A DNA stretch of 33,522 nt from Candidatus Aenigmatarchaeota archaeon (lineage in GTDB: Archaea; Aenigmatarchaeota; Aenigmatarchaeia; GW2011-AR5; JAGGXF01), in contig JAGGXF010000020.1 of the NCBI GenBank assembly GCA_021163205.1, positions 1 through 33,522 of the forward strand, read 5' to 3'. The translations under genes were made by a program, and so were the position numbers. Each line of letters starts with the position of its first letter. The first letter of the stretch is position 1. Of the stretch, positions 12,938-31,376 are shown in pieces. The notes below the pieces were generated by a model that saw only the letters and a program-made list of their open reading frames with translations, ran no database searches and was not told where the DNA came from.

Positions 12938-13642
12938 TCATCTATAATTGTTGAATTTGTGATAAGATTTACCATTTAAAAAGTGAAGTGTTCCTATAGA
13001 ATATTCTACCAATGTTCTTAAGATTCCGGCTTTTTTTAGTCGTCTGCAAGATGTAAAAACAGGGAAATATATTAATTTTATTTTTCCATAATGCTTTATT
13101 TCAGATGCGAGTGCATGGTCTTCACATGGAATTATATGTTCGTCATAACCCCCCACTTTTTCAAAAACGTCTTTTCTATATGTTGGCGCCACCGTTGATG
13201 TGGGAAAATTAAGAATTGTTGCAAGAAAAAGAAGAATGTGGGATATTTTGAATAAGATTTTATGAAATATATTATTTGAATCAGACGGATATGGTATAAA
13301 AGATAGTCCCACAATATTTTGGTCCTTGAATCCGTTAACAACTATTTCTAGAAAGTTCTCATCCAGAATACTGTCAGCACCACAAACTACGATTATCTCC
13401 CCTTTTGCTTTTTTAGCCGCCTGATTACATTGGTAGCCTATATGTGCCCTTTTACAAACAATGACCTTGTCAGCGTATTTTTTCGCTATCTTTACTGTTT
13501 TATCTTTTGATTTTGCATCCGTGACTATAATCTCATAGTTTTTGTAGCTCTGCCTTTTTATGGACTTCAGGCAATTTTCTATATAACCTTCCTCATTTAA
13601 TGTGGGGATTATTATGGATATGAATGGTTTTCTTTTATTCAT
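12938..13642 (-). CDS. Family 2 glycosyltransferase B (paralogue pair)
   Basis: This GT2 of 234 residues shares its N-terminal strand and helix (PFISIIIPTLNEEG onward) with its downstream paralogue. The metal-binding region reads VVCGADSIL, with only one acidic residue before the serine rather than D-x-D, and the acceptor motif is IIPCEDHALASEI. ATG at 13642 is preferred: the segment AAGGTG (13657-13652, minus strand) makes a good Shine-Dalgarno sequence 9 bases upstream, while the GTG at 13654 lies inside that sequence. A hydrophobic segment near 120-145 may contact the membrane. It is transcribed divergently from the second PHP gene. Confidence 0.86.
   Translation of the reverse strand: MNKRKPFISIIIPTLNEEGYIENCLKSIKRQSYKNYEIIVTDAKSKDKTVKIAKKYADKVIVCKRAHIGYQCNQAAKKAKGEIIVVCGADSILDENFLEIVVNGFKDQNIVGLSFIPYPSDSNNIFHKILFKISHILLFLATILNFPTSTVAPTYRKDVFEKVGGYDEHIIPCEDHALASEIKHYGKIKLIYFPVFTSCRRLKKAGILRTLVEYSIGTLHFLNGKSYHKFNNYR
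13524..13630 (+). repeat. 107-base perfect repeat, copy 2
   Basis: Second copy of the repeat at 12822-12928. Identity over 107 bases, against strong divergence elsewhere in the two genes, points to recent gene conversion or strong local constraint. Confidence 0.95.
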
Positions 13643-13715
13643 CTTTTCACACACCTTAGAATATTCTCAATACTTTCTTCAATACTTTAATACTTTTTCT
13701 TGCTTTTTATTATCT

Positions 13716-14369
13716 ATGCGCATCGATTTGCATATCCATACAAACCGCTCAAAATGCTCTTCCATGCCTGTGAAGGATTTGATAAAAATAGCCGCGCGCT
13801 GTGGCCTTGATGGTATAGCCATAACAGACCATAACACTATAAAAGCGTGGAAAGAAGCGAAGAATCTTCTGAGGCGTTTGGATAGTTCCCTAATTTTTAT
13901 CAGAGGAGAAGAGATCAGTAGTAAGGATGGGCACATACTTGCGCTAGGCATACAGAATGTCATAAAGAGGAACATGTCAGCAGAGGAAACCATAGAAAAG
14001 ATACATGAGCAGGGCGGCATTGCTATTTTTGCTCACCCATTCGACTATTTTCGTCAGCACACCACAGAAGAAAAACTTCGTGGACTCGAGATTGATGGTA
14101 TAGAGGTTTTCAACTCTCGTTGTATTCTCGGTTATTCAAATTCGAAGGCAAAGCGGCTCGCAGCAAAAATGCGCGTAGCACAAGTCGCTGGCTCAGATGC
14201 ACATTTTTCAGGTGAGGTGGGCAACGCCTACACTATTTTTAAGGATGCCCATTCAGAAGCAGATGTAATCAAAGCGATAAAAAAATGTCAGACAATACCT
14301 GCCGGAAAAAATTCACCGATTTTTGTTCATTTGGAGACGTGGCTCACGAAAATAAAAAAGAGATTATGA
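13716..14369 (+). CDS. PHP-domain metal-dependent phosphoesterase (second copy)
   Basis: The product has 217 residues. The ordered PHP motifs are all present: DLHIHTNRS, AITDHNT, GEEISS, IFAHPFDYF and AGSDAHFS. It is a paralogue of the PHP protein at 9849-10469, with the same overall layout. ATG at 13716 directly precedes the first strand and lies 27 bases after a TATA-like CTTTAATA (13685-13692), so it is leaderless. The longer in-frame extension back to 13602 would overlap the divergent GT2 gene and carries no family homology. The tRNA-Arg gene lies on the opposite strand just downstream. The substrate is unknown. Confidence 0.85.
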   Translation: MRIDLHIHTNRSKCSSMPVKDLIKIAARCGLDGIAITDHNTIKAWKEAKNLLRRLDSSLIFIRGEEISSKDGHILALGIQNVIKRNMSAEETIEKIHEQGGIAIFAHPFDYFRQHTTEEKLRGLEIDGIEVFNSRCILGYSNSKAKRLAAKMRVAQVAGSDAHFSGEVGNAYTIFKDAHSEADVIKAIKKCQTIPAGKNSPIFVHLETWLTKIKKRL

Positions 14370-14387
14370 TTAGTGCCCCCATCGGGA

Positions 14388-14449
14388 ATTTCATAACCCT
14401 TCTTTTAATAGCCGAATGACCTAAGTTTCTTTACAAAGAAAAGGGTTAG
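14388..14449 (-). other. T-loop intron (59/60) of tRNA-Arg
   Basis: 62-base intron bounded by a textbook BHB: outer helix TCGGG/CCCGA, bulge AAC, central TTCA/TGAA, bulge ATT, inner 8-bp TAACCCTT/AAGGGTTA. Confidence 0.85.
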
Positions 14450-14492
14450 TTTGAACCCGAGTTAAGAGGTCCGCAACCTCTTGTGCTATCCA

Positions 14493-14515
14493 TTGTAGAA
14501 CCTTTGTACCGGCTT
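14493..14515 (-). other. D-loop intron of tRNA-Arg
   Basis: 23-base insert. The central helix GTAG/CTAC (extendable to TGTAG/CTACA) and inner helix AGCC/GGTT enclose 3-base bulges. The outer helix is missing, so it is a relaxed BHB. Exact ends could shift by one base. Confidence 0.7.
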
Positions 14516-14637
14516 AGCTACACTATGGGGGCATTGATAAATCATAGAGGAAGAACAATTTAAAAAGATTGTGCCTAAAATAAACTATGAATCTTTGATA
14601 ACAGCCATGCAATAGAAAATACAAATCAGGTGTCTAT

Positions 14638-17210: not shown

Positions 17211-17552
17211 CTATCGCGTCATGTTTAATGGTTTGCACTGCGGGCACAAATGGGCACAGTCTTCATGTGTTGAAATAGCTGCTTTAAGCTGACAAACCTC
17301 ATACAGGGAATCGGGCTCACCATTTCTGTCATGATCAAATCCCGGGATTATTATGTCTTCAACCGTGTCAGGGTCGCAGTTATGTAGTATTGATAAGCTG
17401 TTACAGCCTTTTGTGAACGCGGTCTCTACATCTATTGTTCCTGTCTGTTTAAACCAACCGGGCATGAAAAATGCTAGAATGACCAACAGAGCCAACACAG
17501 CTATTATCATTATTATAATCATGTTTATAGGTAGAGAAACACCTTTTTTCAT
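17211..17552 (-). CDS. Cysteine-rich pilin-like protein with class III signal peptide
   Basis: The product has 113 residues. MKKG followed at once by a hydrophobic helix (VSLPINMIIIMIIAVLALL) is the archaeal class III (type IV prepilin) signal, in which a FlaK/PibD-type peptidase cuts after the glycine and leaves the helix on the mature protein. The small exposed part has six cysteines, three of them in DCAHLCPQC near the C-terminus, so three disulfides or a metal site are possible. AGGAGGT lies just before the ATG. A TATA-like TTTTAAATA is embedded in the inverted repeat upstream. It is the last gene of the filament/secretion run, separated from the rest by Alba. The family is not recognised. 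Confidence 0.75.
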   Translation of the reverse strand: MKKGVSLPINMIIIMIIAVLALLVILAFFMPGWFKQTGTIDVETAFTKGCNSLSILHNCDPDTVEDIIIPGFDHDRNGEPDSLYEVCQLKAAISTHEDCAHLCPQCKPLNMTR

Positions 17553-17601
17553 TTCAAGAACCTCCTGAACGTTTCAATAAAATATTGACGGACCTGGTAT
17601 T

Positions 17602-17634
17602 TAAAATTTTTGTTTAGTGAAAACAAAAATTTTA
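17602..17634. repeat. 14-bp perfect AT-rich inverted repeat
   Basis: TAAAATTTTTGTTT and AAACAAAAATTTTA flank a 5-base spacer (AGTGA). It overlaps the TATA region of the pilin-like gene at 17552. It could be an operator, or a second terminator behind Alba. Confidence 0.6.
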
Positions 17635-17707
17635 TTGTGTGAATTCTTATCTTCTGTCTTATTTTCATCATTTATCAATACCAGAAAAAAGAGAAAAAGT
17701 CGCAAAG

Positions 17708-17750
17708 CAAAAAAGAAAGAATAAAAAGCCTTGCCTACTCCTTGGCAAGG
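17708..17750 (-). terminator. Hairpin terminator of Alba
   Basis: On the minus strand CCTTGCC (17750-17744) pairs with GGCAAGG (17735-17729), and CTTTTTATTCTTTCTTTTTT follows. The Alba stop codon lies at the edge of the stem. Confidence 0.7.
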
Positions 17751-18031
17751 GTTATAGTTATCGTGGAGACATTCACCTTTTCTTTGTTCTCGTTTTCTAT
17801 TTGATCTGTTCCTGTTTCAATGCTTTTTATTTTTGCTTCCGGAACAAATTTGTTTTTGACGATTTCCGCGACATCCACTGCCTTGCTAATTGATCTTCCT
17901 CTGGCCTTCAAATAAATTTCTTTTTGGCCATCACCAAATTGCGTTACTGCTGCAAGGACATAAGACATGCTTGGTTTCTTTCCAATGAAAACGGTGTTAT
18001 CGTCTGCCTTTTTTGATGCTTCTTCTGCCAT
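17735..18031 (-). CDS. albA: DNA/RNA-binding protein Alba
   Basis: The product has 98 residues. NTVFIGKKPSMSYVLAAV carries the adjacent lysines of the nucleic-acid-binding loop. EIYLKARGRSISKAVDVAEIV and the ending VSTITITLAKE complete the Alba fold. Alba dimers coat archaeal chromatin and RNA. ATG at 18031 is chosen because AGGGGGT lies 7 bases upstream; the in-frame ATG at 18067 would add 12 unlike residues and leave no room for the TATA-like ATAATTAATT near 18066-18076. The gene has its own promoter and terminator although it lies between two pilin-like genes. Confidence 0.92.
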   Translation of the reverse strand: MAEEASKKADDNTVFIGKKPSMSYVLAAVTQFGDGQKEIYLKARGRSISKAVDVAEIVKNKFVPEAKIKSIETGTDQIENENKEKVNVSTITITLAKE

Positions 18032-18103
18032 TTTCTTACCCCCTATTTCATTGATTTTGCTGTTCAATTAATTATACCTATGGGCAAAAGTTTTTTAAAG
18101 TGT

Positions 18104-18424
18104 TCACTTGGTGCCTGGGCAGGCAATATCACAGCACTTTTTCACGCACTCCACGGTAAGCGAACCGCTGCAACCGGGATATTTCAGCTGTTGGCAGACA
18201 TTGGCCAACTTTTCGGTAACCTCATCTTCAACTTGGTCAACATCTTCGCATTTCGGGTCACTCTTAACGTACGCGTTGCACAAGCTTATTCGTTGCTGGT
18301 TGGCTTTTATTTCATTTATACCTGGCGTTTGTCCATAAATAATTCCCAGCGCTACGAGAAGAACGACAACAGCTATTATTAGCAGAATTAATTGATTTAT
18401 CGCTAGCGATATCCCTTTTTTCAT
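18104..18424 (-). CDS. Cysteine-rich pilin-like protein with class III signal peptide
   Basis: The product has 106 residues and begins MKKGISLAINQLILLIIAVVV, almost the same signal and helix as the protein at 17211-17552, so the two are paralogues in their anchors. The exposed region is short, acidic in the middle (EDVDQVEDEVTEKL) and carries eight cysteines, including ECVKKCC near the end. AGGGTGAT precedes the ATG at good spacing. A class III peptidase would cut after Gly4. It is either a minor filament subunit or a membrane-held partner of one. No family is recognised beyond the signal type. Confidence 0.75.
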   Translation of the reverse strand: MKKGISLAINQLILLIIAVVVLLVALGIIYGQTPGINEIKANQQRISLCNAYVKSDPKCEDVDQVEDEVTEKLANVCQQLKYPGCSGSLTVECVKKCCDIACPGTK

Positions 18425-18461
18425 TATATCACCCTCTTTATCTTATTAAATAAATATATCA

Positions 18462-19199
18462 TCATTTCTCTATTTTAAACTTTAGCGTGAACGGTTTCTT
18501 TCTTATGCTCCCGTCTTTGCTTATGTAATTGTGTCGCGCCTCTTTCTCGGCTATGTTCACTTCATAGTATTCTTCCTCTTCATCTATGTTGATATCCACA
18601 CAATCGTTGGCACAGGATTTCATACTACCCACGTCTCCACGATGGTCCAGAACGCACAGACCAGCCTTTCTGAGTTCATCAAGCCTAACAGATACGCTTT
18701 TATTAAATTCAAAAATCTTGGTCACATCTGCGCCAGATGTGTGAACAGACAACTCATATTCTAATGACACGAACATATCAGAATCAGAAAAGGTCATGTT
18801 TTTCAGTGTTATTTTACCTATCGTAACATTCACGCCGTTGACAATCATGTACCTTTTTATGCTGAAAAACGTTTTCATGTTCCTTCTGACATACTCTTCC
18901 ATAACCTCTTTTGTCGGCCTGAACTCACTGCCTTGTATATACCAATATTCATGACCAAGCCCATTTTCAAGCGCTTCAAAAATGTTCTGCACCGTGCTCA
19001 ACGACCATGTTTTGTCGAGCGATTCTTTAGCAAGGTAAAAGGTGTTTTTAACTGTCAGGATTTCAACCTCTCTAAATGTCAGTAAATGCTCGTGCGTCTG
19101 ACCAAGTTTATAGACAGCATAGGTAAACAGACTTAGAAAAACCACACCAAATGCCAACATAATATAACTTAACGGGATCAATCCTTTTTTTCTTCTCAT
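18462..19199 (-). CDS. Pilin-like secreted protein, 245 residues
   Basis: MRRKKG is followed by LIPLSYIMLAFGVVFLSLFTYAV, a class III-type signal with cleavage expected after Gly6. The mature protein has a long exposed part. It contains an N-terminal helix (about 30-75), a beta-rich central domain with alternating hydrophobic residues, two cysteines close together in CVLDHRGDVGSMKSCANDC (third cysteine six residues on), and a very acidic stretch DEEEEYYE. The start overlaps the previous stop by four bases, and AGAGGT precedes it. It is the largest pilin-like exodomain of the run, perhaps a tip or adhesive subunit (inference). Confidence 0.72.
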   Translation of the reverse strand: MRRKKGLIPLSYIMLAFGVVFLSLFTYAVYKLGQTHEHLLTFREVEILTVKNTFYLAKESLDKTWSLSTVQNIFEALENGLGHEYWYIQGSEFRPTKEVMEEYVRRNMKTFFSIKRYMIVNGVNVTIGKITLKNMTFSDSDMFVSLEYELSVHTSGADVTKIFEFNKSVSVRLDELRKAGLCVLDHRGDVGSMKSCANDCVDINIDEEEEYYEVNIAEKEARHNYISKDGSIRKKPFTLKFKIEK

Positions 19200-19687
19200 G
19201 TAATAACCTCTACCACCAGTCTTCCAACTCTGTTTTTATAGAGCAGCGGTGTTTCTGCCTTAAAGCTTTCCAACCTCTCAATATCGACGTTCAATTTGCT
19301 TATTATCGTTCTTTCTTCGTCACCTTCTTTTATGTAAACAATATAGTGAAAGTTATATCTGTCAAGAAAGTCCTTTAAGAAATTCTTGAAGTCTTCATCT
19401 GTTTTGTTGCCAAGCCAAATATCGTAGAAATAATCTATCCCACGACGGCCGTTGTAATCGAGGTTGGTTATGCTATCTGCAATAAGATAAGGTCTGTTTA
19501 TGAAGGTTTCTGTTTCTACAGGAGCCTTTATAACGATTGGTTGACTACTACCGCCTTTTATTTTACTTGGTAGCCACTTGACTATTTTAGCGCCTTTTAA
19601 GAAAAATGTCAGGAATAGTCCTGCAACAATCATAATAATTATTACAAAAAGCGCGGTTACCAGTTTTTCCATTTGGCCTTTTCTCAT
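19196..19687 (-). CDS. Pilin-like protein, 163 residues
   Basis: MRKGQMEKLVTALFVIIIMIVAG shows a class III signal (cut after Gly4) with Gln at +1 and Glu at +3 of the mature chain. This fits the G/Q-x-x-E pattern seen in archaeal prepilins, where the Glu helps docking in the filament. A basic, glycine- and serine-bearing linker (KIKGGSS) follows. The exposed domain is alpha/beta, with many aromatic residues and no cysteine. GGTGAG precedes the ATG, and both ends overlap the neighbouring genes by four bases, so the four genes from 20668 downwards are translationally coupled. Confidence 0.73.
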   Translation of the reverse strand: MRKGQMEKLVTALFVIIIMIVAGLFLTFFLKGAKIVKWLPSKIKGGSSQPIVIKAPVETETFINRPYLIADSITNLDYNGRRGIDYFYDIWLGNKTDEDFKNFLKDFLDRYNFHYIVYIKEGDEERTIISKLNVDIERLESFKAETPLLYKNRVGRLVVEVIT

Positions 19688-20286
19688 AGCTCACCAAATC
19701 TCCTACAAACTTTTTTAGATTTTCCAGATATGCATGTATTTTCTCCTTCTTTTGTGACGGTGAAGATGCAGACATTTCCACCTTTTGGATTATAGCAAGG
19801 TATTTTTGCTTCTGTGCCATTAATTTTACAAAAAGCCTTTATTATGTTGCCTGTTTTCAGAAATATTTTCATTTCTGCAGGCGCAAAGTGGTCTTCGTAT
19901 CTAATAGAGACGGGATATGTAGCTCCGTTTTCTCCTTCAGCGTCTTTGTAGCCAAAAGACCACGTGTTGTTGTTCGTCAAATCGGTTATCTCGACAAGGT
20001 AGGCATAAGAACAAAGCTTTACAGGTTCTATATTTGTGTCCTGATATTTATCCAGCTGGTTCTTGTCAAATATGGATTTTTTATATGTTAGGTTAGACGA
20101 TAAAATATTTTCAGTAAGCTGGATAGCCGTTCTCGATATCTCCTTTTCAGATACTTCTATTCGGATTTCTGAATAAGATGTGAAAACAGAGTATATCGAA
20201 GTGAAAAATACAGCTATGATTAAAGTAAATATAACTAAATCTGATGGAGCATCAAGCTGGCCTTTGGTGTGTTTCAATTTTATCAT
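19684..20286 (-). CDS. Pilin-like protein, about 200 residues
   Basis: The N-terminus KHTKGQLDAPSDLVIFTLIIAVFF resembles a class III signal with cleavage after Gly, then Gln at +1, a polar stretch and a hydrophobic helix. The start is uncertain: ATG at 20286 (or 20298) lies inside the upstream gene, whereas an in-frame TTG at 20277 has AGGATGAT at ideal spacing. The exposed domain is beta-rich with five or more cysteines, including PCYNPKGGNVC and TCISGKSKKVC pairs near the C-terminus. No family is recognised. It overlaps the downstream gene by four bases. Confidence 0.7.
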   Translation of the reverse strand: MIKLKHTKGQLDAPSDLVIFTLIIAVFFTSIYSVFTSYSEIRIEVSEKEISRTAIQLTENILSSNLTYKKSIFDKNQLDKYQDTNIEPVKLCSYAYLVEITDLTNNNTWSFGYKDAEGENGATYPVSIRYEDHFAPAEMKIFLKTGNIIKAFCKINGTEAKIPCYNPKGGNVCIFTVTKEGENTCISGKSKKVCRRFGEL

Positions 20287-20668
20287 CCTTTTTTTCAAAA
20301 ACTATAATTTTTTCTTTATCTTTTTCGCATGTGAAATTAGTAGGCTCTACTGGAATTCTGCTAATAAAATATGTTTGATAATAGTTATCTTTTTTTTCTT
20401 CTGTTTTCACAGTAACATAATTCTCACCAAGTTCTATTGAGCATGTTCCCTGCGGCAGTTTTATGTTTGCACTTATTGGATAGCTTGAAGATTCAAGAGA
20501 ATTTATAACGCTTGCGATAGTATTGCTCTGCCAATGCGCGCTCATCTGAATACTTTTGTCTACCATCATTGATGAAAACTCTGTCAGAGTCAAGACGAGG
20601 GTTATGCCGACAATGAGCCCTATGATAACACTGAGAACTAAATACTTGAGCGATATTATACCTTTCAT
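20252..20668 (-). CDS. Pilin-like protein, 138 residues
   Basis: MKG is followed by IISLKYLVLSVIIGLIVGITLVL, a short class III-type signal with one long hydrophobic helix. The exposed part is about 105 residues, beta-rich, with two cysteines (GTCSIEL and NFTCEKD) that could form one disulfide. The C-terminus is basic and acidic alternating, low in complexity (EKDKEKIIVFEKKDDK). The gene ends inside the start region of the next pilin-like gene, by 35 to 47 bases depending on the start used. It starts 18 bases after the 407-residue gene. No known family is recognised. Confidence 0.7.
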   Translation of the reverse strand: MKGIISLKYLVLSVIIGLIVGITLVLTLTEFSSMMVDKSIQMSAHWQSNTIASVINSLESSSYPISANIKLPQGTCSIELGENYVTVKTEEKKDNYYQTYFISRIPVEPTNFTCEKDKEKIIVFEKKDDKIETHQRPA

Positions 20669-20686
20669 AATTCACAACCACAAAAT

Positions 20687-21910
20687 TCAGTCAAACGGAT
20701 GTCTTGGCCAGGCCCATCTGGTTTCCAGCCATGACATACCAACATTGGATGCAGTCCTAGTAACGATAGTAGCCGACCCGGCGGTTACTATATCAGCACC
20801 TATTTCTGCCAGTACTATTAGTGCATCAGCTATATATTTTGCTCCTTGCGGTGATGTGTAGCAAAAATTATCCCCAGTTTCGTTAGTTATATCTTCCTTA
20901 TATATCTTTACTTTTAGGCATGGAATTTCTTCCGACCCTTTAAGTCTCCCAAGAGTAGATTTTTCACACACCGTTCTATTGGCTATCCACCTAAGCGTGT
21001 CATTTTTCTCATCATAGAAATAAACCGGTTCTTCCTTCACATCAGAACATTTACAAGTAGCGTGATAAATTCTGAACCGTGCCTTGCATGGGCTTGCCAG
21101 ATAAAAGGATTTATCTACACCAACAGAAAAAAAGTCTTTCACAGTCCCCCAATCAAATGTGTCGTGTATAGAGGCTCCCTTGCTAAGTTCCACATACATT
21201 ATGCCTCTTTTTTTACACTCATCCAACGGAAAGACTATTTTTTCATCCTTGGTTTTGAGGCATAACGATTGTGGTGAGCACACGCTAAACTTGTCCATGG
21301 CTCTATCAGCAGCTGATAAACTTTTCTGGTATATGAATGTCTTTCCGACCCAAGTGCCGAGATGCCCGCTGCTTTTAATTATATTAGGAAAAGCAGCTTT
21401 AACTCTTGATGCTGCCAACTCTGGTAGTTTGCTTGCTAGTTTTTTTCCAGCTTTTTTTCCAACAGACTCTGCTGCTTCTGACAGGCTTTTACCAAGAACT
21501 TTTTTTGCTACTATCCCACCAACCTTGTCTGCGCCAGGTATCTTTATCGGTACCAAAGCCAAAACCATTGAAATTCCTATGTAGTTGGACCACGCGAGGT
21601 CTTCTCCTTCTGGGAACGCCTCGTAGTAAAGGATGAACTGAGGGTCTTGCACAGAGCTGAAATATTGTTTTAGGAAAGACCTGTCTGGAACCTTTTCTGG
21701 CATGTTGACCTTAACATCGACATCTTTTCCTGTCATGCATGCAAAGTTCATCGCATCTGCTATGTCCTGTGCAGACGCTATTGCCAGCCTTTTTTGGACC
21801 TGATAATTATAACCAAGAATCACAACATATATTATATATAAGATAAATGCGAGGAGAATTATTCCAAGTAGCATTCTGTATGGTATATCTATCATTGCTT
21901 TTCTACCCAT
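20687..21910 (-). CDS. Large membrane-anchored extracytoplasmic protein, 407 residues
   Basis: MGRKAMIDIPYRMLLGIILLAFILYIIYVVI gives a basic N-terminus and one span; GRKA before the helix is a weaker class III-like site (Ala instead of Gly). A helical Ala/Lys/Gly-rich segment with hydrophobic character follows at about 115-190. A cysteine-bearing domain then follows, with CSPQSLC, CKARFRIYHATCKC, and further cysteines at CEKS, CLKV and CYTS. The C-terminus has another hydrophobic stretch (IADALIVLAEIGADIVTAGSATIV). GGGGTGAT overlapping the preceding micro-gene's stop serves as ribosome-binding site. I do not recognise the family; position suggests a structural or anchoring component of the system. 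Confidence 0.7.
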   Translation of the reverse strand: MGRKAMIDIPYRMLLGIILLAFILYIIYVVILGYNYQVQKRLAIASAQDIADAMNFACMTGKDVDVKVNMPEKVPDRSFLKQYFSSVQDPQFILYYEAFPEGEDLAWSNYIGISMVLALVPIKIPGADKVGGIVAKKVLGKSLSEAAESVGKKAGKKLASKLPELAASRVKAAFPNIIKSSGHLGTWVGKTFIYQKSLSAADRAMDKFSVCSPQSLCLKTKDEKIVFPLDECKKRGIMYVELSKGASIHDTFDWGTVKDFFSVGVDKSFYLASPCKARFRIYHATCKCSDVKEEPVYFYDEKNDTLRWIANRTVCEKSTLGRLKGSEEIPCLKVKIYKEDITNETGDNFCYTSPQGAKYIADALIVLAEIGADIVTAGSATIVTRTASNVGMSWLETRWAWPRHPFD

Positions 21911-21914
21911 TTTA

Positions 21915-22034
21915 TCACCCCGGGAGACCTTTTAGGAAGTTATCGACCGTGCTTACTATGTCTTTGTGAAGTAAAAGTATAATAGCTATAACTACTATGA
22001 GAATAACCAGTTTTATTATGAGTTCTTTTTCCAT
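21915..22034 (-). CDS. 39-residue single-span membrane micro-protein
   Basis: MEKELIIKLVILIVVIAII starts a single membrane span of about 17 residues; a polar tail (HKDIVSTVDNFLKGLPG) follows. It lies one base after the stop of the 56-residue gene, behind AAAGGGAT. Its own stop overlaps the ribosome-binding site of the 407-residue gene. Tight coupling on both sides supports it as a real gene despite its size. It lacks the KG signal of the pilin-like proteins, so it is more likely a platform-associated peptide than a filament subunit (inference). Confidence 0.65.
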   Translation of the reverse strand: MEKELIIKLVILIVVIAIILLLHKDIVSTVDNFLKGLPG

Positions 22035-22035
22035 T

Positions 22036-22206
22036 CTATCCCTTTTTGAATATTGAAGTCAGATTATAGAAAAGTATTGTTAACAACGAGTGTTGTTGCT
22101 CCATGTCTCCCTGCATTTTTTTAAGTACAAGAATCCCAAACATTATTACTATTACTAGAAAAAATACCATTATCACTATTCTTGCGACTTTGTTCATATT
22201 ATTCAT
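22036..22206 (-). CDS. 56-residue single-span membrane micro-protein
   Basis: The N-terminus MNNMNKVARI is followed by one span (VIMVFFLVIVIMFGILVL) and a soluble tail of about 28 residues with MQGDMEQQHS. The start at 22206 overlaps the stop of the 180-residue gene; an alternative in-frame ATG is at 22197. One base separates its stop from the ATG of the next micro-gene. The whole interval between its neighbours is filled by this frame, which supports it. No family is recognised. Confidence 0.62.
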   Translation of the reverse strand: MNNMNKVARIVIMVFFLVIVIMFGILVLKKMQGDMEQQHSLLTILFYNLTSIFKKG

Positions 22207-22741
22207 CTGTTGAAAAGGTTTGTTTTACCTGACCCAAGAAGCTCTCTCCGCACGTCAGTCCTATATCAAGAGCTGATGTTTCTTTTGAGCAGCCGTTGCT
22301 CTTGAACGATTCGTAAACCCTTTCCAGACAATCGCTATCGTCCCAAAACGAAACTTTTACCACATAATCCTTTTTTTCTGCTACTAATGAAATCTCTATG
22401 TCACCTTCCAGGAAATTGTCTATTTTTTTGATATTGCATACATAGTTTTCTAGATTGGAATAGTCTATTGCTTCTATTATAACTATGAGGTCAATGCGTC
22501 TTCCTTCTCTTGTTTTTGCCTCCACACTAAAATGGAACTGACCGTTTTCATAAGTCAATTCAGGTTCAGATGTGTTGTAGATGTCAAAATTTTTTTGAAC
22601 GCCAGGAGAAAATAGGTTTGTTCGTGTTTCTTCTGCTTTTTTGGTGACATTATTCACAAGCAGAAGTCCCAGAGCTAGAATAAATATTATCGAGAAAACC
22701 ATTAGTGCTGTATTAGTTGTCACGCCTTTCATCATAACCAT
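22199..22741 (-). CDS. Pilin-like protein, 180 residues
   Basis: MVMMKG followed by VTTNTALMVFSIIFILALGLLLV is a class III-type signal with expected cleavage after Gly6 and one helix. The exposed part is about 145 residues, beta-rich, with cysteines in YVCNI, DCLE, NGCS and LTCGE, so two disulfides are possible. Three closely spaced ATG codons make the exact start uncertain; the listed one shares one base with the stop of the preceding micro-gene. It is the first pilin-like gene downstream of the platform gene and so possibly a major subunit (inference). Confidence 0.72.
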   Translation of the reverse strand: MVMMKGVTTNTALMVFSIIFILALGLLLVNNVTKKAEETRTNLFSPGVQKNFDIYNTSEPELTYENGQFHFSVEAKTREGRRIDLIVIIEAIDYSNLENYVCNIKKIDNFLEGDIEISLVAEKKDYVVKVSFWDDSDCLERVYESFKSNGCSKETSALDIGLTCGESFLGQVKQTFSTDE

Positions 22742-22902
22742 CAGAATGGATTCAACATTTTGGCGATGGTGCTCACCAGCATAGCCGGAAGGCTAAACAT
22801 AAGCTTGAGTATCTCGGAAAACCCACCCTTAAGGAAGAATGTGATAAGAACTGCAGATACAGCAATTGCGAATATTGTTGTAATCAAAATCATTTTATCC
22901 AT
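22741..22902 (-). CDS. 53-residue membrane micro-protein
   Basis: MDKMILITTIFAIAVSAVLITFFL forms one span, then KGG and a second moderately hydrophobic, amphipathic helix rich in Met and Leu (LKLMFSLPAMLVS). AAGGTGAT (22912-22905) lies five bases before the ATG. Its TGA overlaps the ATG of the 180-residue pilin-like gene by one base. It has no class III signal. Conservation cannot be judged here; support comes from coupling and full use of the interval. Confidence 0.65.
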   Translation of the reverse strand: MDKMILITTIFAIAVSAVLITFFLKGGFSEILKLMFSLPAMLVSTIAKMLNPF

Positions 22903-22911
22903 ACCATCACC

Positions 22912-23037
22912 TTATTTCAATATTAATTTTATTATTGGGACAAAATTCTCTTTCTGGCTCCATATTACCCCAGTCAAGATTGTCATCACCAATATTCCTA
23001 GGATAAAAATAAACAAAATCTTCCAAATGTATTGCAT
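22912..23037 (-). CDS. 41-residue single-span membrane micro-protein
   Basis: MQYIWKILFIFILGILVMTILTGVIW is a single span and SQKENFVPIIKLILK the short tail. The ATG lies 29 bases after the stop of the T2SF gene, behind AGGTGA; an in-frame GTG 12 bases upstream follows AGGAGG and is a possible alternative start. Its stop overlaps the ribosome-binding site of the next micro-gene. It is the first of four micro-genes interleaved with larger genes behind the platform protein. Confidence 0.65.
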   Translation of the reverse strand: MQYIWKILFIFILGILVMTILTGVIWSQKENFVPIIKLILK

Positions 23038-23066
23038 TCTGGTCTTCACCTATTGCCTATTTCCTC

Positions 23067-25133
23067 CTAGCTTATTATCATATACGTCAGCGGTCCGAAG
23101 ATGCTGAGCGTGCCAAAAAGGGCTATAATATATATCAGAAGGCCCACTAATAAAGATTTCCCCATGAGATTATGCCTGCTTATGTCATCTTCTCCGTTTT
23201 CTATGCCGTTTATAAACATCGATAATAACACAGCTGTTTCTATAAAATATATGCCGACAATGAGCTGAAATGCACCCGGTGTTATCGGCACGTTGCCCCA
23301 CATGTCCAGTACGGTTCCGAAACCACCTGTTTGTATGTTTTGTATCTGCTCGCCAAGCGTGGCCAGTATGTTTATAATTATCGTTGCCATAGTTACGACT
23401 ATGCCGCATATAAATGGCGTCAAGAAAAATATCTGAAACTTTAATGAGCTAACAACATCATTGAGCTCCGTAGAAACTTCTCGGTCTGTTCTGTAGATAC
23501 CACGAAGATAACGAGATATTGCCAGCATTGACAAGCCAGCGATTTGCACTCCCTTTTTGCTGGAGTCGACGACAACTTTTATTATGGATCTTATCAAGTC
23601 AGAGTGGAAGTATCTTAAAGCCCCATGATTTTTGTCAAAGAATGCCTGCTCGAAGGTCATGCCCATCTTTTTCATATTATTGACGACAATTTTGAACATT
23701 TTTTGTATTTGAAGCGAGCCGATACTCTTGGCAGAACGCTCTACAGCAACCTCAGTTGGCAGGCCGCTTGCTGTTCGGTTGGCAAGCTGGAACAAAGCTT
23801 CGGAAAATTCTTTTTCCATCTGCTTGATTTCGTTGCGGATCTTGATAGCCTGAAAAGATATAAGGTAATAATATATTCCCAATGCCACAGCCACCCCAGA
23901 TATCAAGACGACAGATGGTCCAAGTTCTCCGCCAGATGTGGTAAAACCAACAATACCCATAAAGCACAAGACGGTTCCCAGAACAAGCGCAGGTATCCAG
24001 GCAGGTACGAAAAGCACACCATCCTTTGTGCTGAGAGCAAATTTTCCTTTAGGCGGTAGGTTCGGATTTGACGAAATATTGATATTACTGAATGTTACCG
24101 GTCGCATTTCGAGCGTGTTGGTTATGAAAAAGAATAGTAGTAGCGGCAAAACAATATCATAGCCAACAAAGAGCGCCATTGGCTTGATTACATCTGAGAG
24201 AAATATCGCGACAACAGGAAACATGACCATACCCATGATAGGTAATAGCACACCAAGTGCATGTATCATCATCACCGGCATCTTTAGTGACAAGTTATAT
24301 TCTCTTGCTTTCTCGCGCGTGCCGTCGAGTATCACATTAATAGCTTCGTCAAGCATATTTATCCTTCTATTCTCTGTCTGTGTGAGGCTCGTGCTAAGAA
24401 TCTGCATAGCCTCGACAAAGTCTTTATCATCTTTCCACTTTTCTAAATAATCTGTGAGAGCTTCATCTATGCTATTATACTTGCCAACTTCAATGTCCCA
24501 CAACAACTTTCTTATATCATAAGAAAGCGGTCCGCTAAGATTTTTCGCCGCAAAGCTCAATGCAGATTCCATGTTTGGAGAATTTCGCATGTATATGGAC
24601 ATGTACAAGACAAGCATCACTATTTCTGAGCCTGCCTTTATTCGGAAGCGCTTTTCAAGATGAACAGGATAAAGATACATGTAATAAGCGAATGGTAGCA
24701 CAATGAGAAATACTAGGATAGCATTACCAGGGCTTATACCGGGCAGTGGCGTAAACATACCGAGCAGAATGAAGAAAAATGTTATCATAGTCGAGAATAA
24801 CACTATAAGAATGCTGAGCGATACCACGCCTTCTGGGGTTATGTTAAGATGGCAGAAGTCAATGGACTTTTGAAGCTTTGCTCTGCTTTTTTCATCTGGT
24901 TCGATTCTCAGTATTTTTTCAGCTTTGTTGCAGAGCTTTTCATAAGTTGTCCTTGGTAAAGTTTTCCAGGTTTCCTCCTCTTTGAATATTCTATATTGCA
25001 GAGAACTTATGTCTGGTTTTTCTGCCGTTGCAGTCGGCATCGAAACAGTTTGATACTGTTCTAGAATTTCCTCCTTTAAAGTTTTCTTTTTTGTTATATG
25101 CCCTCTAAATAACTTTTTGAGCCAATCAAACAT
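23067..25133 (-). CDS. Type IV filament / type II secretion platform protein (tandem T2SF, TadC/ArlJ-like)
   Basis: This polytopic protein of 688 residues has a cytoplasmic N-terminal region of about 100 residues with an amphipathic start (FDWLKKLFRGH). Two spans follow, then a first T2SF domain with SIYMRNSPNMESALSFAAKNL, further spans, a second T2SF domain with FSEALFQLANRTASGLPTEVAVE, and closing spans. Duplicated T2SF domains in one chain are typical of archaeal platform proteins (ArlJ/FlaJ, TadC, PilC-like), which sit in the membrane above the ATPase and insert pilins. It lies 96 bases after the ATPase gene on the same strand. Its nearest functional class (archaellum, pilus or secretion) cannot be decided from sequence alone. 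Confidence 0.87.
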   Translation of the reverse strand: MFDWLKKLFRGHITKKKTLKEEILEQYQTVSMPTATAEKPDISSLQYRIFKEEETWKTLPRTTYEKLCNKAEKILRIEPDEKSRAKLQKSIDFCHLNITPEGVVSLSILIVLFSTMITFFFILLGMFTPLPGISPGNAILVFLIVLPFAYYMYLYPVHLEKRFRIKAGSEIVMLVLYMSIYMRNSPNMESALSFAAKNLSGPLSYDIRKLLWDIEVGKYNSIDEALTDYLEKWKDDKDFVEAMQILSTSLTQTENRRINMLDEAINVILDGTREKAREYNLSLKMPVMMIHALGVLLPIMGMVMFPVVAIFLSDVIKPMALFVGYDIVLPLLLFFFITNTLEMRPVTFSNINISSNPNLPPKGKFALSTKDGVLFVPAWIPALVLGTVLCFMGIVGFTTSGGELGPSVVLISGVAVALGIYYYLISFQAIKIRNEIKQMEKEFSEALFQLANRTASGLPTEVAVERSAKSIGSLQIQKMFKIVVNNMKKMGMTFEQAFFDKNHGALRYFHSDLIRSIIKVVVDSSKKGVQIAGLSMLAISRYLRGIYRTDREVSTELNDVVSSLKFQIFFLTPFICGIVVTMATIIINILATLGEQIQNIQTGGFGTVLDMWGNVPITPGAFQLIVGIYFIETAVLLSMFINGIENGEDDISRHNLMGKSLLVGLLIYIIALFGTLSIFGPLTYMIIS

Positions 25134-25229
25134 TTTAGTTCACTTTCTTACACGATTTGTTTAAGTCGATACTCATCTAAAATACCTAATAACATTAAAA
25201 CCTTCTATTGTCTAATAACATTATGCGTC

Positions 25230-27473
25230 TTATATCAAGCCAGGCTTTTTCACATAGGTTTTCTTGAACCAATCAAACCATCTTTCATATATGATTTTTT
25301 CATCTAGCACATCGATTTCTCTCTTAACGGATTCGCTTATTATGTGGAACTGATTATTCGAGTCAAGAACAGTGGGCGCTTCTAGTATACTTTTATCTTT
25401 TGTCTGTCTTGCGACATCGACAATGGTCTGTAAAATTTTTGCGCGCAGATTTATGTTACCCCAAACAGCATCCCAATCACCTTTCCATTCCCTCACGCGA
25501 TTGGCTATATCATTTAGTATCACACTCTCTCCAGTAAGCAGAGTTTCGCTTGGTTTTAGTGTATCATCTTTCGAAGAATATTGCATCAAGTCCACGAAGC
25601 CGCCCTCTGCGCTTGGGTCGTCTTTCCAATGCTTGCGTACCTCAGTTATGCTGATCATTCTTCTGAATGTGTGCAGACCGTCTGCACTCTTGAGCCTGTT
25701 TGCGATAACAACAATGTCAGTGGCTTTGAAACTCGTTTTTGGCACACCAAGGTCATTGACAACCCTATCAAATACGCCGTAGGGAGAGTCGCCGTGTATA
25801 GTACCAGCCACGACATTGGCCAGAGCACCAATTCGCATAGCCTCGTACAAGGCTCGTGCTTCAAGACTTCTAACCTCGCCTATGATTAGGCATGAGTCTC
25901 CAAGTCTCAGAGCCGTACGCAATGCCTCATCAGCAGATATCTCTGTTTCTATTCTTGTTATAACAGATCTCGATTTCAATCGTTCAATATTATAACCAAG
26001 TTGCATCAGTCTGACAACAGGCAGTTCCAATGTATCTTCTACTGTTATAATTCTAAGACTAGGCATAATTTGTAACATAAGTGAACCGAGTAGGCTGGAC
26101 TTACCGCTGGAACGCGTGCCTGCTATCAACATTGTCCGCGCGCCGTCTATGAGAAACCACAAAAGCCCACCAGCGAGCGAGTTCATCATCCGATTGTCTA
26201 TGAAAAGCGGGAATGTCCACGGTTTATCTCTATGCCTTCTAATTGCGAAGCCAAGGCCATCTGGAGAAAGCGTACGAGTAATGGCAGCTACTCTTGCACG
26301 CGCACCAGGCACATCCATTTCCGTGTCTAGCACGGGGTTTGCTTCATCCAAAGGTCGGCCAGATTGCAGACGAAATCGTGTTGCCCACGACTCGGCATCA
26401 TCTCGGCTTGGCACAAGATTGGTTTCACATTCTTCGAAGTCAGAATGAAAAACGAATATTGGTACCTTTCCAACAGGTGCATTTATGGATATGTCTTGGA
26501 TATGTTCGTCAGCAAGGAGAAGTTCAAGAATACCGAACCCGGCGGTGTATCTTGTTAAGATGTTTGCCAGTTTTTCTATCCTTTTCTCGCTCAGAGATAG
26601 GTTGCTTCTTTCAGCCATGTCCCTGAGCAGGTCTATGCCTATATTGTAGAAGTTTTCCCGGATTTTCTCAGGCTCTGCCAATTCCATTTCTTTTGGTTTG
26701 TGCGCACCGAGATAGCGTCGCGCCGCGTCCAGTAACGAATATTCATCTTCGGACAACCTAAATTCAGGTGGTATGACGTGATAATAGTATCTGACTTTTG
26801 AAGGCAGTTTATATATCTCAACCTTTGTATCCCCGACATCGTATTTGTCAACAGTCTCCGCATTTGCCGGGGGTAATGAGATGTATTTTGTGTACATAAA
26901 ATTCGGTCGAATGCTCGGGTGAAAAACTTCTCTATAAAAAGAACGGTCTTTGTATCCTATTTTTTCAGCCAGTTTTATCAACGTGCATTTGCTGAGCATA
27001 TTAATGATGGGCTCGAGTGCATGTTTGATATAATAATCAGAGCATCGAACACATTCTTCAGGCATTTTTTTCATCTTTATTTTAACGTGTCGAAGCTCCC
27101 GGACAAGGTTTTTATAAGCTTTGACAGGATCATATCTTATCAATGTAACATTATTCTGAAGAAACATGTATCTTTCAGGTACGCATTTCTCACATTTACC
27201 GGGTGTTATGTTATCTATCCTTACAATCTTTTCTCTTGCTATTCTTTCAACAACATTTGCTATCTCCATCAGCATTTTAACATCAGAGAAATCGTATTCA
27301 TACTCTCGCGTTTCGGCAAGTACGATGCCCGTCGCTTTTTTTACCTCAATGAGTTTGTTTATGGTTGTGGCCATGCACACATCGAAGTCTTCTATGCTAG
27401 AGCCATAAACACAGCCGAGGCAGTTAACTCTTATCTTCCCTGTTTCGTCATCATAGGTGTAATCGCAGACCAT
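25230..27473 (-). CDS. Secretion/assembly ATPase (GspE/VirB11/TadA-like) with cysteine-rich N-terminus
   Basis: The product has 747 residues. The core carries Walker A GTRSSGKS (452-459), the Asp box VEDT (478-481), Walker B CLIIGEVRS (528-536) and the His box AGTIHGDS (556-563), as in hexameric type II/IV secretion ATPases. The N-terminal 200 residues are unusual: three CxxC pairs (Cys18/21, Cys94/97, Cys141/144) plus single Cys33 and Cys163, suggesting bound zinc or another metal. About 115 residues follow the core region. A TATA-like stretch on the minus strand near 27484-27499 fits a leaderless start at 27473. It heads the filament run and would power assembly through the T2SF protein. 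Confidence 0.9.
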   Translation of the reverse strand: MVCDYTYDDETGKIRVNCLGCVYGSSIEDFDVCMATTINKLIEVKKATGIVLAETREYEYDFSDVKMLMEIANVVERIAREKIVRIDNITPGKCEKCVPERYMFLQNNVTLIRYDPVKAYKNLVRELRHVKIKMKKMPEECVRCSDYYIKHALEPIINMLSKCTLIKLAEKIGYKDRSFYREVFHPSIRPNFMYTKYISLPPANAETVDKYDVGDTKVEIYKLPSKVRYYYHVIPPEFRLSEDEYSLLDAARRYLGAHKPKEMELAEPEKIRENFYNIGIDLLRDMAERSNLSLSEKRIEKLANILTRYTAGFGILELLLADEHIQDISINAPVGKVPIFVFHSDFEECETNLVPSRDDAESWATRFRLQSGRPLDEANPVLDTEMDVPGARARVAAITRTLSPDGLGFAIRRHRDKPWTFPLFIDNRMMNSLAGGLLWFLIDGARTMLIAGTRSSGKSSLLGSLMLQIMPSLRIITVEDTLELPVVRLMQLGYNIERLKSRSVITRIETEISADEALRTALRLGDSCLIIGEVRSLEARALYEAMRIGALANVVAGTIHGDSPYGVFDRVVNDLGVPKTSFKATDIVVIANRLKSADGLHTFRRMISITEVRKHWKDDPSAEGGFVDLMQYSSKDDTLKPSETLLTGESVILNDIANRVREWKGDWDAVWGNINLRAKILQTIVDVARQTKDKSILEAPTVLDSNNQFHIISESVKREIDVLDEKIIYERWFDWFKKTYVKKPGLI

Positions 27474-30983: not shown

Positions 30984-31376
30984 TCAGCCGTTACTACTAC
31001 TTGTTATTTGCTTTTTGAAAAACAGCCACGTCTTTGTTCCGGCCTTTTTGAAGCGTATCAGGCAATAGAGGCCTTTCAGCTTCTCGCCAGCGAGTCTGAA
31101 AACGAGTTTGTCCTTCGTTTTCTCTATCAATTCATAACTTCCTTTGTCCCAGATTTCTACTGTGCCTGCACCATAACCCTCTGATATCGTTCCTTCAAAG
31201 TTCGCATAGCTCAGGTCATGGTCATCCACTTGTATGGCCAAGCGCTTGGTGCCTGTTGACCTTGGAGGGGTTTTAGGCACAGCCCAGCTTTTCAGGACGC
31301 CATCCATCTCCAAACGAAGGTCATAATGCAAATGTGTCGCGCGATGTTTTTGCACAACGAAAATTGGTTTTGGCAC
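30984..31376 (-). CDS. Stand-alone LigD-type 3'-phosphoesterase domain
   Basis: The product has 130 residues. FVVQKHRATHLHYDLRLEMDG has the HxHYDxRxE set (His15, His17, Asp19, Arg21, Glu23). ISEGYGAGTVEIWDKGSYE and the final TWLFFKK follow, as in the phosphoesterase domain of bacterial LigD, which trims 3'-phosphates and ribonucleotides at DNA breaks. Here no ligase or polymerase domain is attached and none is encoded in the window. GTG at 31376 lies one base after the aIF5B stop (TGATGTG), so translation is coupled to that gene. Size matches the isolated archaeal members of the family. A role in DNA end repair is known for the family, not shown here. Confidence 0.9.
   Translation of the reverse strand: MPKPIFVVQKHRATHLHYDLRLEMDGVLKSWAVPKTPPRSTGTKRLAIQVDDHDLSYANFEGTISEGYGAGTVEIWDKGSYELIEKTKDKLVFRLAGEKLKGLYCLIRFKKAGTKTWLFFKKQITSSSNG

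Follow-up and report, generated by a model that had tools for sequence, protein, structure and literature searches.

A tRNA-Arg(GCG) gene with two non-canonical introns in an aenigmatarchaeal genome in which every tRNA gene found is interrupted

Is a tRNA gene that takes its normal shape only after the removal of two inserts a working gene, and which enzyme would remove them? The question is raised by positions 14374-14532 of a 33,522-nt contig from a Candidatus Aenigmatarchaeota archaeon; the whole of that stretch is here called the window. A reading made from the sequence only had placed there a tRNA-Arg(GCG) gene with inserts of 23 and 62 nt, the first bounded by a relaxed and the second by a complete BHB motif, and with a spliced product of 74 nt. 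Coordinates, insert lengths, product length, anticodon and both motif classes are correct; the strand, which had been left unstated, is minus. We describe the gene, its setting in the genome and among relatives, and the splicing enzymes encoded alongside it.

The gene is 159 nt long, does not encode CCA and is the sole Arg(GCG) gene found in the genome; all its parts lie on the minus strand. Exon 1 (14516-14532, 17 nt) runs from G1 to U17 and supplies the 5′ strands of the acceptor and D-stems and the start of the D-loop. Intron 1 (14493-14515, 23 nt) lies in the D-loop, after U17 and before U17a-G18-G19. Exon 2 (14450-14492, 43 nt) carries the remainder of the D-loop, the anticodon arm with TTGCGGA (anticodon GCG), the variable loop, the 5′ strand of the T-stem and TTCAAA (positions 54-59). 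Intron 2 (14388-14449, 62 nt) follows in the T-loop at 59/60, and exon 3 (14374-14387, 14 nt) provides U60, the 3′ strands of the T-stem and acceptor stem, and discriminator A73. Site 37/38 has no insert, as the sequence-only reading had also noted. In the spliced tRNA, GCCCCCATAGTGTAGCTTGGATAGCACAAGAGGTTGCGGACCTCTTAACTCGGGTTCAAATCCCGATGGGGGCA (74 nt), every stem is paired and U33, A58 and A73 are present. Weak flanking signals on the same strand are a TATA-like box, TTTTTAAA, at -34 to -27 (14559-14566), and a T-run, TTTTTT (14354-14359), a possible terminator that lies downstream of the gene, where it overlaps the convergent ORF 13602-14369 at its end. At the other tRNA loci of the genome, a scan for such a box gave no sharp peak and no conserved TATA-box position.

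Both introns show the hallmark of the BHB motif, two 3-nt bulges around a 4-bp helix at the exon-intron boundaries. At the D-loop intron the central helix pairs GTAG (14518-14521, tRNA positions 12-15) with CTAC (14495-14498, within intron 1), the bulges are CTA and AAT, the inner helix is AGCC/GGTT and the outer helix is absent, giving a relaxed HBh′ motif. At the T-loop intron the outer helix is the T-stem itself (CGGG/CCCG), and the central helix pairs TTCA (14452-14455, tRNA positions 54-57) with TGAA (14390-14393, within intron 2); AAC and ATT form the bulges and TAACCC/GGGTTA the inner helix, which makes this a complete hBHBh′ motif.

From this anatomy we infer transcription of the precursor, its cleavage by EndA and its ligation by RtcB. 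The transcript would fold so that each exon-intron boundary falls in a 3-nt bulge beside a 4-bp helix; the single EndA would cut both bulges of each motif, and RtcB would join the exons into a 74-nt tRNA decoding CGU and CGC. The T-loop motif draws on the T-stem and on the TTCA that is near-universal in T-loops. The D-loop motif occupies G12-U13, bases that overlap the D-stem, and so motif and D-stem are mutually exclusive; the D-loop motif forms in the predicted fold of the precursor, and its cleavage would have to precede formation of the D-stem. The sequence-only reading had seen this competition and had drawn from it an ordered removal. The competition is there, but it implies no order between the two introns, because on folding of either single-intron intermediate the other motif stays intact.

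ARAGORN run without introns finds no tRNA in the raw window, and neither does Rfam, as expected for a gene with two long inserts. Once spliced, the sequence is called tRNA-Arg(gcg) by ARAGORN with a score of 125.5. We scanned the whole recovered genome in the manner of SPLITS, finding BHB motifs, splicing out one or two candidate introns and scoring the product by ARAGORN; the same 125.5 was the top score in the real genome, against maxima of 99.7 in the reversed genome and of 97.8 and 100.9 in two dinucleotide-preserving shuffles. A relative of the same order (G025) has an intron-free tRNA-Arg(GCG) (L124) of exactly 74 nt, identical to the spliced product at 64 of 74 positions, with AGCTTGGA in its D-loop and TTCAAAT in its T-loop, exactly what the two junctions predict. 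This ortholog fixes both junctions, and the intron boundaries of the window gene are not in doubt. The presence of two non-canonical introns in one tRNA gene, as the sequence-only reading had it, is thus borne out by the motifs, the spliced score and the ortholog.

The gene is no exception in its genome (811 kb in 42 contigs, about 91% complete, with one 2.7-kb contig masked). Over that whole genome ARAGORN without introns calls one tRNA, Gly(GCC), with a score of 103.9; taking out a 51-nt D-loop intron lifts this to 121.7. Candidate loci were taken from Rfam RF00005 and ARAGORN with introns, and from the SPLITS-like scan and a T-arm pattern; searched locally, they gave 41 tRNA loci, which between them serve all 20 amino acids and of which not one is intact in the recovered genome. 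This census was built with ARAGORN plus a simple scheme of scoring, in place of tRNAscan-SE, and boundaries in several of the other loci are approximate: Lys-CTT, Asn-GTT, Val-TAC, Val-GAC, Phe, Ser-GGA, both Pro D-arm cases and one Met were partly resolved by hand, and the 11-nt insert of Ser(CGA) is doubtful. At least two introns are present in about 20 of the 41 genes after curation, and Asn(GTT) has three. The sequence-only reading had singled out two introns in one tRNA as notable; that the two are present stands, while their distinction fades in a genome where about half of the tRNA genes carry as many and none is intact.

In the subset resolved confidently by the automatic procedure (26 genes, 36 introns), 16 introns fall in the D-loop, 11 at 37/38, 6 at 59/60 and 3 elsewhere. 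All six 59/60 introns in this subset have complete hBHBh′ motifs and the D-loop introns are mostly relaxed. The median intron length is 33.5 nt in the same subset; a median of 15 nt has been given for sequenced archaea (PMC3218864). With every recovered tRNA gene broken, all translation in this organism would depend on RNA splicing. A standard tRNA finder sees almost no tRNAs here; for small archaeal genomes, estimates of completeness and codon-tRNA analyses would be distorted as a result. At one locus, positions 8786-8938 of contig C6 (plus strand), the acceptor and T-arms of a tRNA are clear and the anticodon arm holds at least two inserts, the anticodon being uncertain.

Relatives share the pattern to differing degrees; all sampled genomes of the phylum come from one class. 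Matches to RF00005 are few in many genomes of the order and class: 8 (G005), 8 (G050), 10 (G002), 14 (G003) and 14 (G016). A further genome of the class, G037, has 41 such matches, many of 73-75 nt, which indicates that the search does detect intact genes where they are present. In G016, assembled in two contigs (72 kb masked), two tRNAs are convincingly intact and many others are interrupted. Orthologs of the window gene differ in their introns: G025 has none; G020 has one, at the same D-loop site; G008 has one, in the D-arm; G018 has one, at 8/9; G010 has two, at 8/9 and in the D-loop; and G017 has two. The G002 ortholog, read by hand, contains three additional stretches, which would fit introns in the D-loop, at 37/38 and at 59/60. 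Such differing sets among relatives point to frequent gain or loss of introns.

Some introns are shared between different tRNA genes. The T-loop intron of the window gene is 93% identical over 75 nt, common T-loop letters included, to the T-loop intron of tRNA-Ala(CGC) in the same genome (C2:4103-4175). A congener (G001) has 84-nt T-loop introns in Gln(CTG), Gly(CCC) and Arg(CCT) that match one another at 96-98% identity across 77-84 nt, and the T-loop introns of its Gly(TCC) and Asp show 100% identity over 91 nt; Gly(CCC) and Arg(CCT) of the window's genome have no T-loop intron. Judged from these sequences, the simplest reading is recent transfer of introns between tRNA genes, as has been described in Thermoproteales (PMC4033280), and the introns would then have been caught moving within one genus. 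As to the mode of movement, we infer that the motif itself makes the intron portable: positions 54-57 hardly vary from one tRNA to another, and one intron ending GAAAT or GAAAA would rebuild the central helix in almost any host. Such portability would yield closely similar introns in different tRNAs, here and in the congener.

The same likeness might have arisen by gene conversion that homogenised the T-arms of different tRNA genes, the T-loop intron not having moved as an element. We give this reading real weight and yet think it somewhat improbable. The shared stretch does take in common exon letters, GGGTTCAAA and TCCC, on either side; beyond those letters, however, the recipient exons remain distinct, and a related core hairpin, CCTTTTCTTTGTAAAGAAAAGG, is found with different ends in a D-loop intron of the congener (L145), which conversion of T-arms explains poorly. 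Transfer of the introns themselves thus stays the simplest reading. A wider dispersal of the intron core outside tRNA genes was considered and dropped, since it had one weak non-tRNA match in the genome and one match in a shuffled genome. The inverted-repeat core of this T-loop intron family, or a close variant, was seen in His of G001 (L145, D-loop) and in Thr of G010 (L136, T-loop), that is, at other sites and in other genera.

We turn to the splicing enzymes. The genome encodes RtcB (PF01139, E=2.6e-172) and one EndA, a 201-aa ORF on the minus strand (C18:10724-11218, or L031:1474-2079; PF01974, E=2.7e-28). A search of the 91%-complete genome with PF01974 and PF02778 (hmmsearch --max) gave no second EndA or separate beta subunit, and no further EndA is detectable in the two-contig relative G016; with the genome 91% complete, a partner subunit could be missing from the assembly. 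The protein has both the N- and the C-terminal domain; its AlphaFold model has a mean pLDDT of 83.7, and the best fold match is 1a79, the EndA of M. jannaschii (TM 0.85). It is not of the epsilon-2 type, its 201-aa ORF comparing with a three-unit protein of about 390 aa. Epsilon-like EndAs of 400-455 aa are found in some relatives only. EndA architecture within the one class is varied (L208-L218, in G011, G006, G055, G038, G034, G041, G047, G051, G032, G036 and G039): the forms seen are a single gene of 200 aa, a fusion of two domains with about 365 aa (G055, G038), two genes side by side (G034, G041, G047) and the epsilon-like protein, and some genomes have two kinds.

In an alignment of 29 enzymes (A1), the catalytic Tyr124 and His140 and the bulge-binding Arg are conserved. 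Position 171 is Ala in 27 of the 29, Ser in one and Thr in one, and the canonical Tyr-His-Lys triad is therefore not present; the corresponding residue is Lys in the sequences compared from M. jannaschii, A. fulgidus (K287), N. equitans, M. kandleri and ARMAN-2 (K282). The Lys is absent from every alpha-type EndA examined across 39 genomes of the phylum, with Ala in its place, or Ser or Thr in a few. Epsilon-type EndAs of G006, G011, G032, G039 and G051 keep it, which assigns the loss to the alpha-type lineage. G037, with its mostly intact tRNAs, also lacks the Lys; the loss thus predates the intron expansion and does not alone explain it.

Neither a CSL nor an ASL was found: in a profile alignment to M. 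jannaschii there is no insertion before the core of the catalytic domain, and the extra residues lie between Tyr and His. This Tyr-to-His loop carries an invariant GPK, lies at the place of I243-E248 of ARMAN-2 and has the length seen in N. equitans. We considered its LKKGPK as a CSL and rejected it, since CSL and ASL lie N-terminal of the catalytic residues and the loop corresponds to I243-E248 of ARMAN-2. The sequence-only reading had proposed inspecting the genome for its EndA type, and the outcome is the single 201-aa alpha-type enzyme just described, without CSL, ASL or catalytic Lys. That reading had also held that removal of both introns demands an endonuclease of broad specificity. The substrate side of this agrees with what we see, most D-loop introns being relaxed; no enzyme of a recognised broad type, (alpha-beta)2 with a CSL or epsilon-2 with an ASL, is encoded.

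The catalytic triad has been described as conserved in all four EndA types and alpha4-type EndAs as having narrow specificity (PMC6379350), and K282A abolishes cleavage by the ARMAN-2 EndA (PMC12397907). Given the missing Lys and the narrow specificity described for alpha4 enzymes, the single alpha-type EndA is the presumptive rather than the proven enzyme for these introns. The lysine of GPK, between Tyr and His, may take over the role of the lost Lys or that of the CSL or ASL lysine. Extended to the phylum, a tentative idea, which we consider rather unlikely as it stands, is that intron-saturated tRNAs are spliced throughout by a homomeric, rewired EndA that has lost the Lys and in which the invariant GPK (K135 of the aligned protein) supplies both the charge and a broad range in place of a CSL or ASL. 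A heavy splicing load on an EndA that lacks a supposedly essential residue bears on which residues EndA needs and on what permits relaxed motifs, both of which are testable.

Alternatively, the introns might be cut by some other nuclease, the single EndA being catalytically dead or serving another role. The substitution of the Lys by Ala, Ser or Thr in the alpha-type EndAs of 39 genomes, its retention in the epsilon-type paralogs of five relatives and the loss of ARMAN-2 activity in K282A speak for a dead enzyme. We nonetheless judge this improbable: the Tyr, the His and the bulge-binding Arg are kept, the EndA gene is strongly conserved, the introns carry motifs of the EndA type, and neither the genome nor G016 has another detectable EndA.

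ORFs of at least 200 codons in the genome of the window gene use CGT 729 times and CGC 803 times. The sequence-only reading had raised the possibility of a second, intact tRNA-Arg(GCG) elsewhere, and no second copy was found in the recovered 91% of the genome. Very probably, then, the window gene is the functional tRNA-Arg(GCG) of the cell, interrupted by two BHB introns that are cut out by the single EndA, with RtcB joining the exons. We think it highly improbable that the gene is a decaying pseudogene and the inserts unspliced debris. It is true that the gene is known from its DNA sequence and that ordinary tRNA finders are blind to it; but BHB motifs bound both inserts exactly, every stem of the spliced tRNA pairs, no other Arg(GCG) gene was found although CGC and CGT codons are in use, and to take insertion as a sign of decay would make pseudogenes of all 41 tRNA genes. 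That the interruption is an artefact of assembly or binning, a suspicion that a fragmented metagenome-type assembly (42 contigs, 91% complete) might invite, deserves scarcely any credence, as independent genomes of the genus, family and order share the intron-rich pattern, among them the two-contig genome with its two convincingly intact tRNA genes only.

Multiple-intron tRNA genes of Thermoproteales (Pyrobaculum, Thermofilum) were reportedly treated by Sugahara in 2008 and Fujishima in 2010, and the tRNA introns of ARMAN-1/2 with their epsilon-2 EndA by Fujishima in 2011 and Hirata in 2012. The gene itself thus belongs to a known class, and interruption of nearly all tRNA genes has been published before, for some Asgard archaea; what seems new is the enzyme context. 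Two non-canonical introns in one tRNA are known in Thermoproteales, ARMAN, N. equitans and others (PMC4033280). Thermoproteales resemble the present case in having up to three BHB introns per tRNA, many of them non-canonical, and similar introns in unrelated tRNAs (PMC4033280, PMC3218864), with more than 70 tRNA introns in P. calidifontis (PMC3218864). They differ in having an (alpha-beta)2 EndA with a CSL and the full Tyr/His/Lys triad, where we find a single alpha-type enzyme with neither CSL nor Lys, in a small-genome lineage with no intact tRNA gene found.

In the Asgard Atabeyarchaeia and Freyarchaeia the interrupted share is 92-95% of tRNA genes, the sites being often non-canonical and more than half of the genes having several introns (PMC11291895). 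The lineage described here is unrelated to them, each of the 41 tRNA genes found in it is interrupted, and movement of introns between tRNAs is apparent within a genus. It adds a third archaeal setting of extreme tRNA-gene interruption, beside Thermoproteales and Asgard archaea. ARMAN-1/2 are likewise ultrasmall archaea with relaxed motifs at various positions, but the ARMAN-2 EndA has three units, 390 aa, an ASL and K282, whereas the present one has one unit, 201 aa, no ASL and Ala for K282. By single-sequence search the closest PDB sequence is the EndA of N. equitans (3IEY, E=3.5e-34), which shares the long Tyr-His loop; that (alpha-beta)2 enzyme, however, retains the catalytic Lys (AHSTRKKM) and comes with a separate beta subunit, of which none was found here. 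The DPANN-like character suggested by the sequence-only reading is consistent with a 0.8-Mb genome, with relatives of 0.3-1.9 Mb and with the nearness of EndA to N. equitans in that search, without being proven by them. A limited literature search, no proof of novelty, found no paper on an EndA lineage without the catalytic Lys or on this pattern in the present lineage.

Two other features of the window, both on the minus strand, were noted by eye. Positions 17211-27473, probably a pilus or archaellum-like locus, hold a long run of small secreted or pilin-like proteins beside large ORFs resembling a type II/IV secretion ATPase and a TadC-like membrane protein. A short free-standing ORF at 30984-31376 resembles a LigD-type 3′-phosphoesterase domain.
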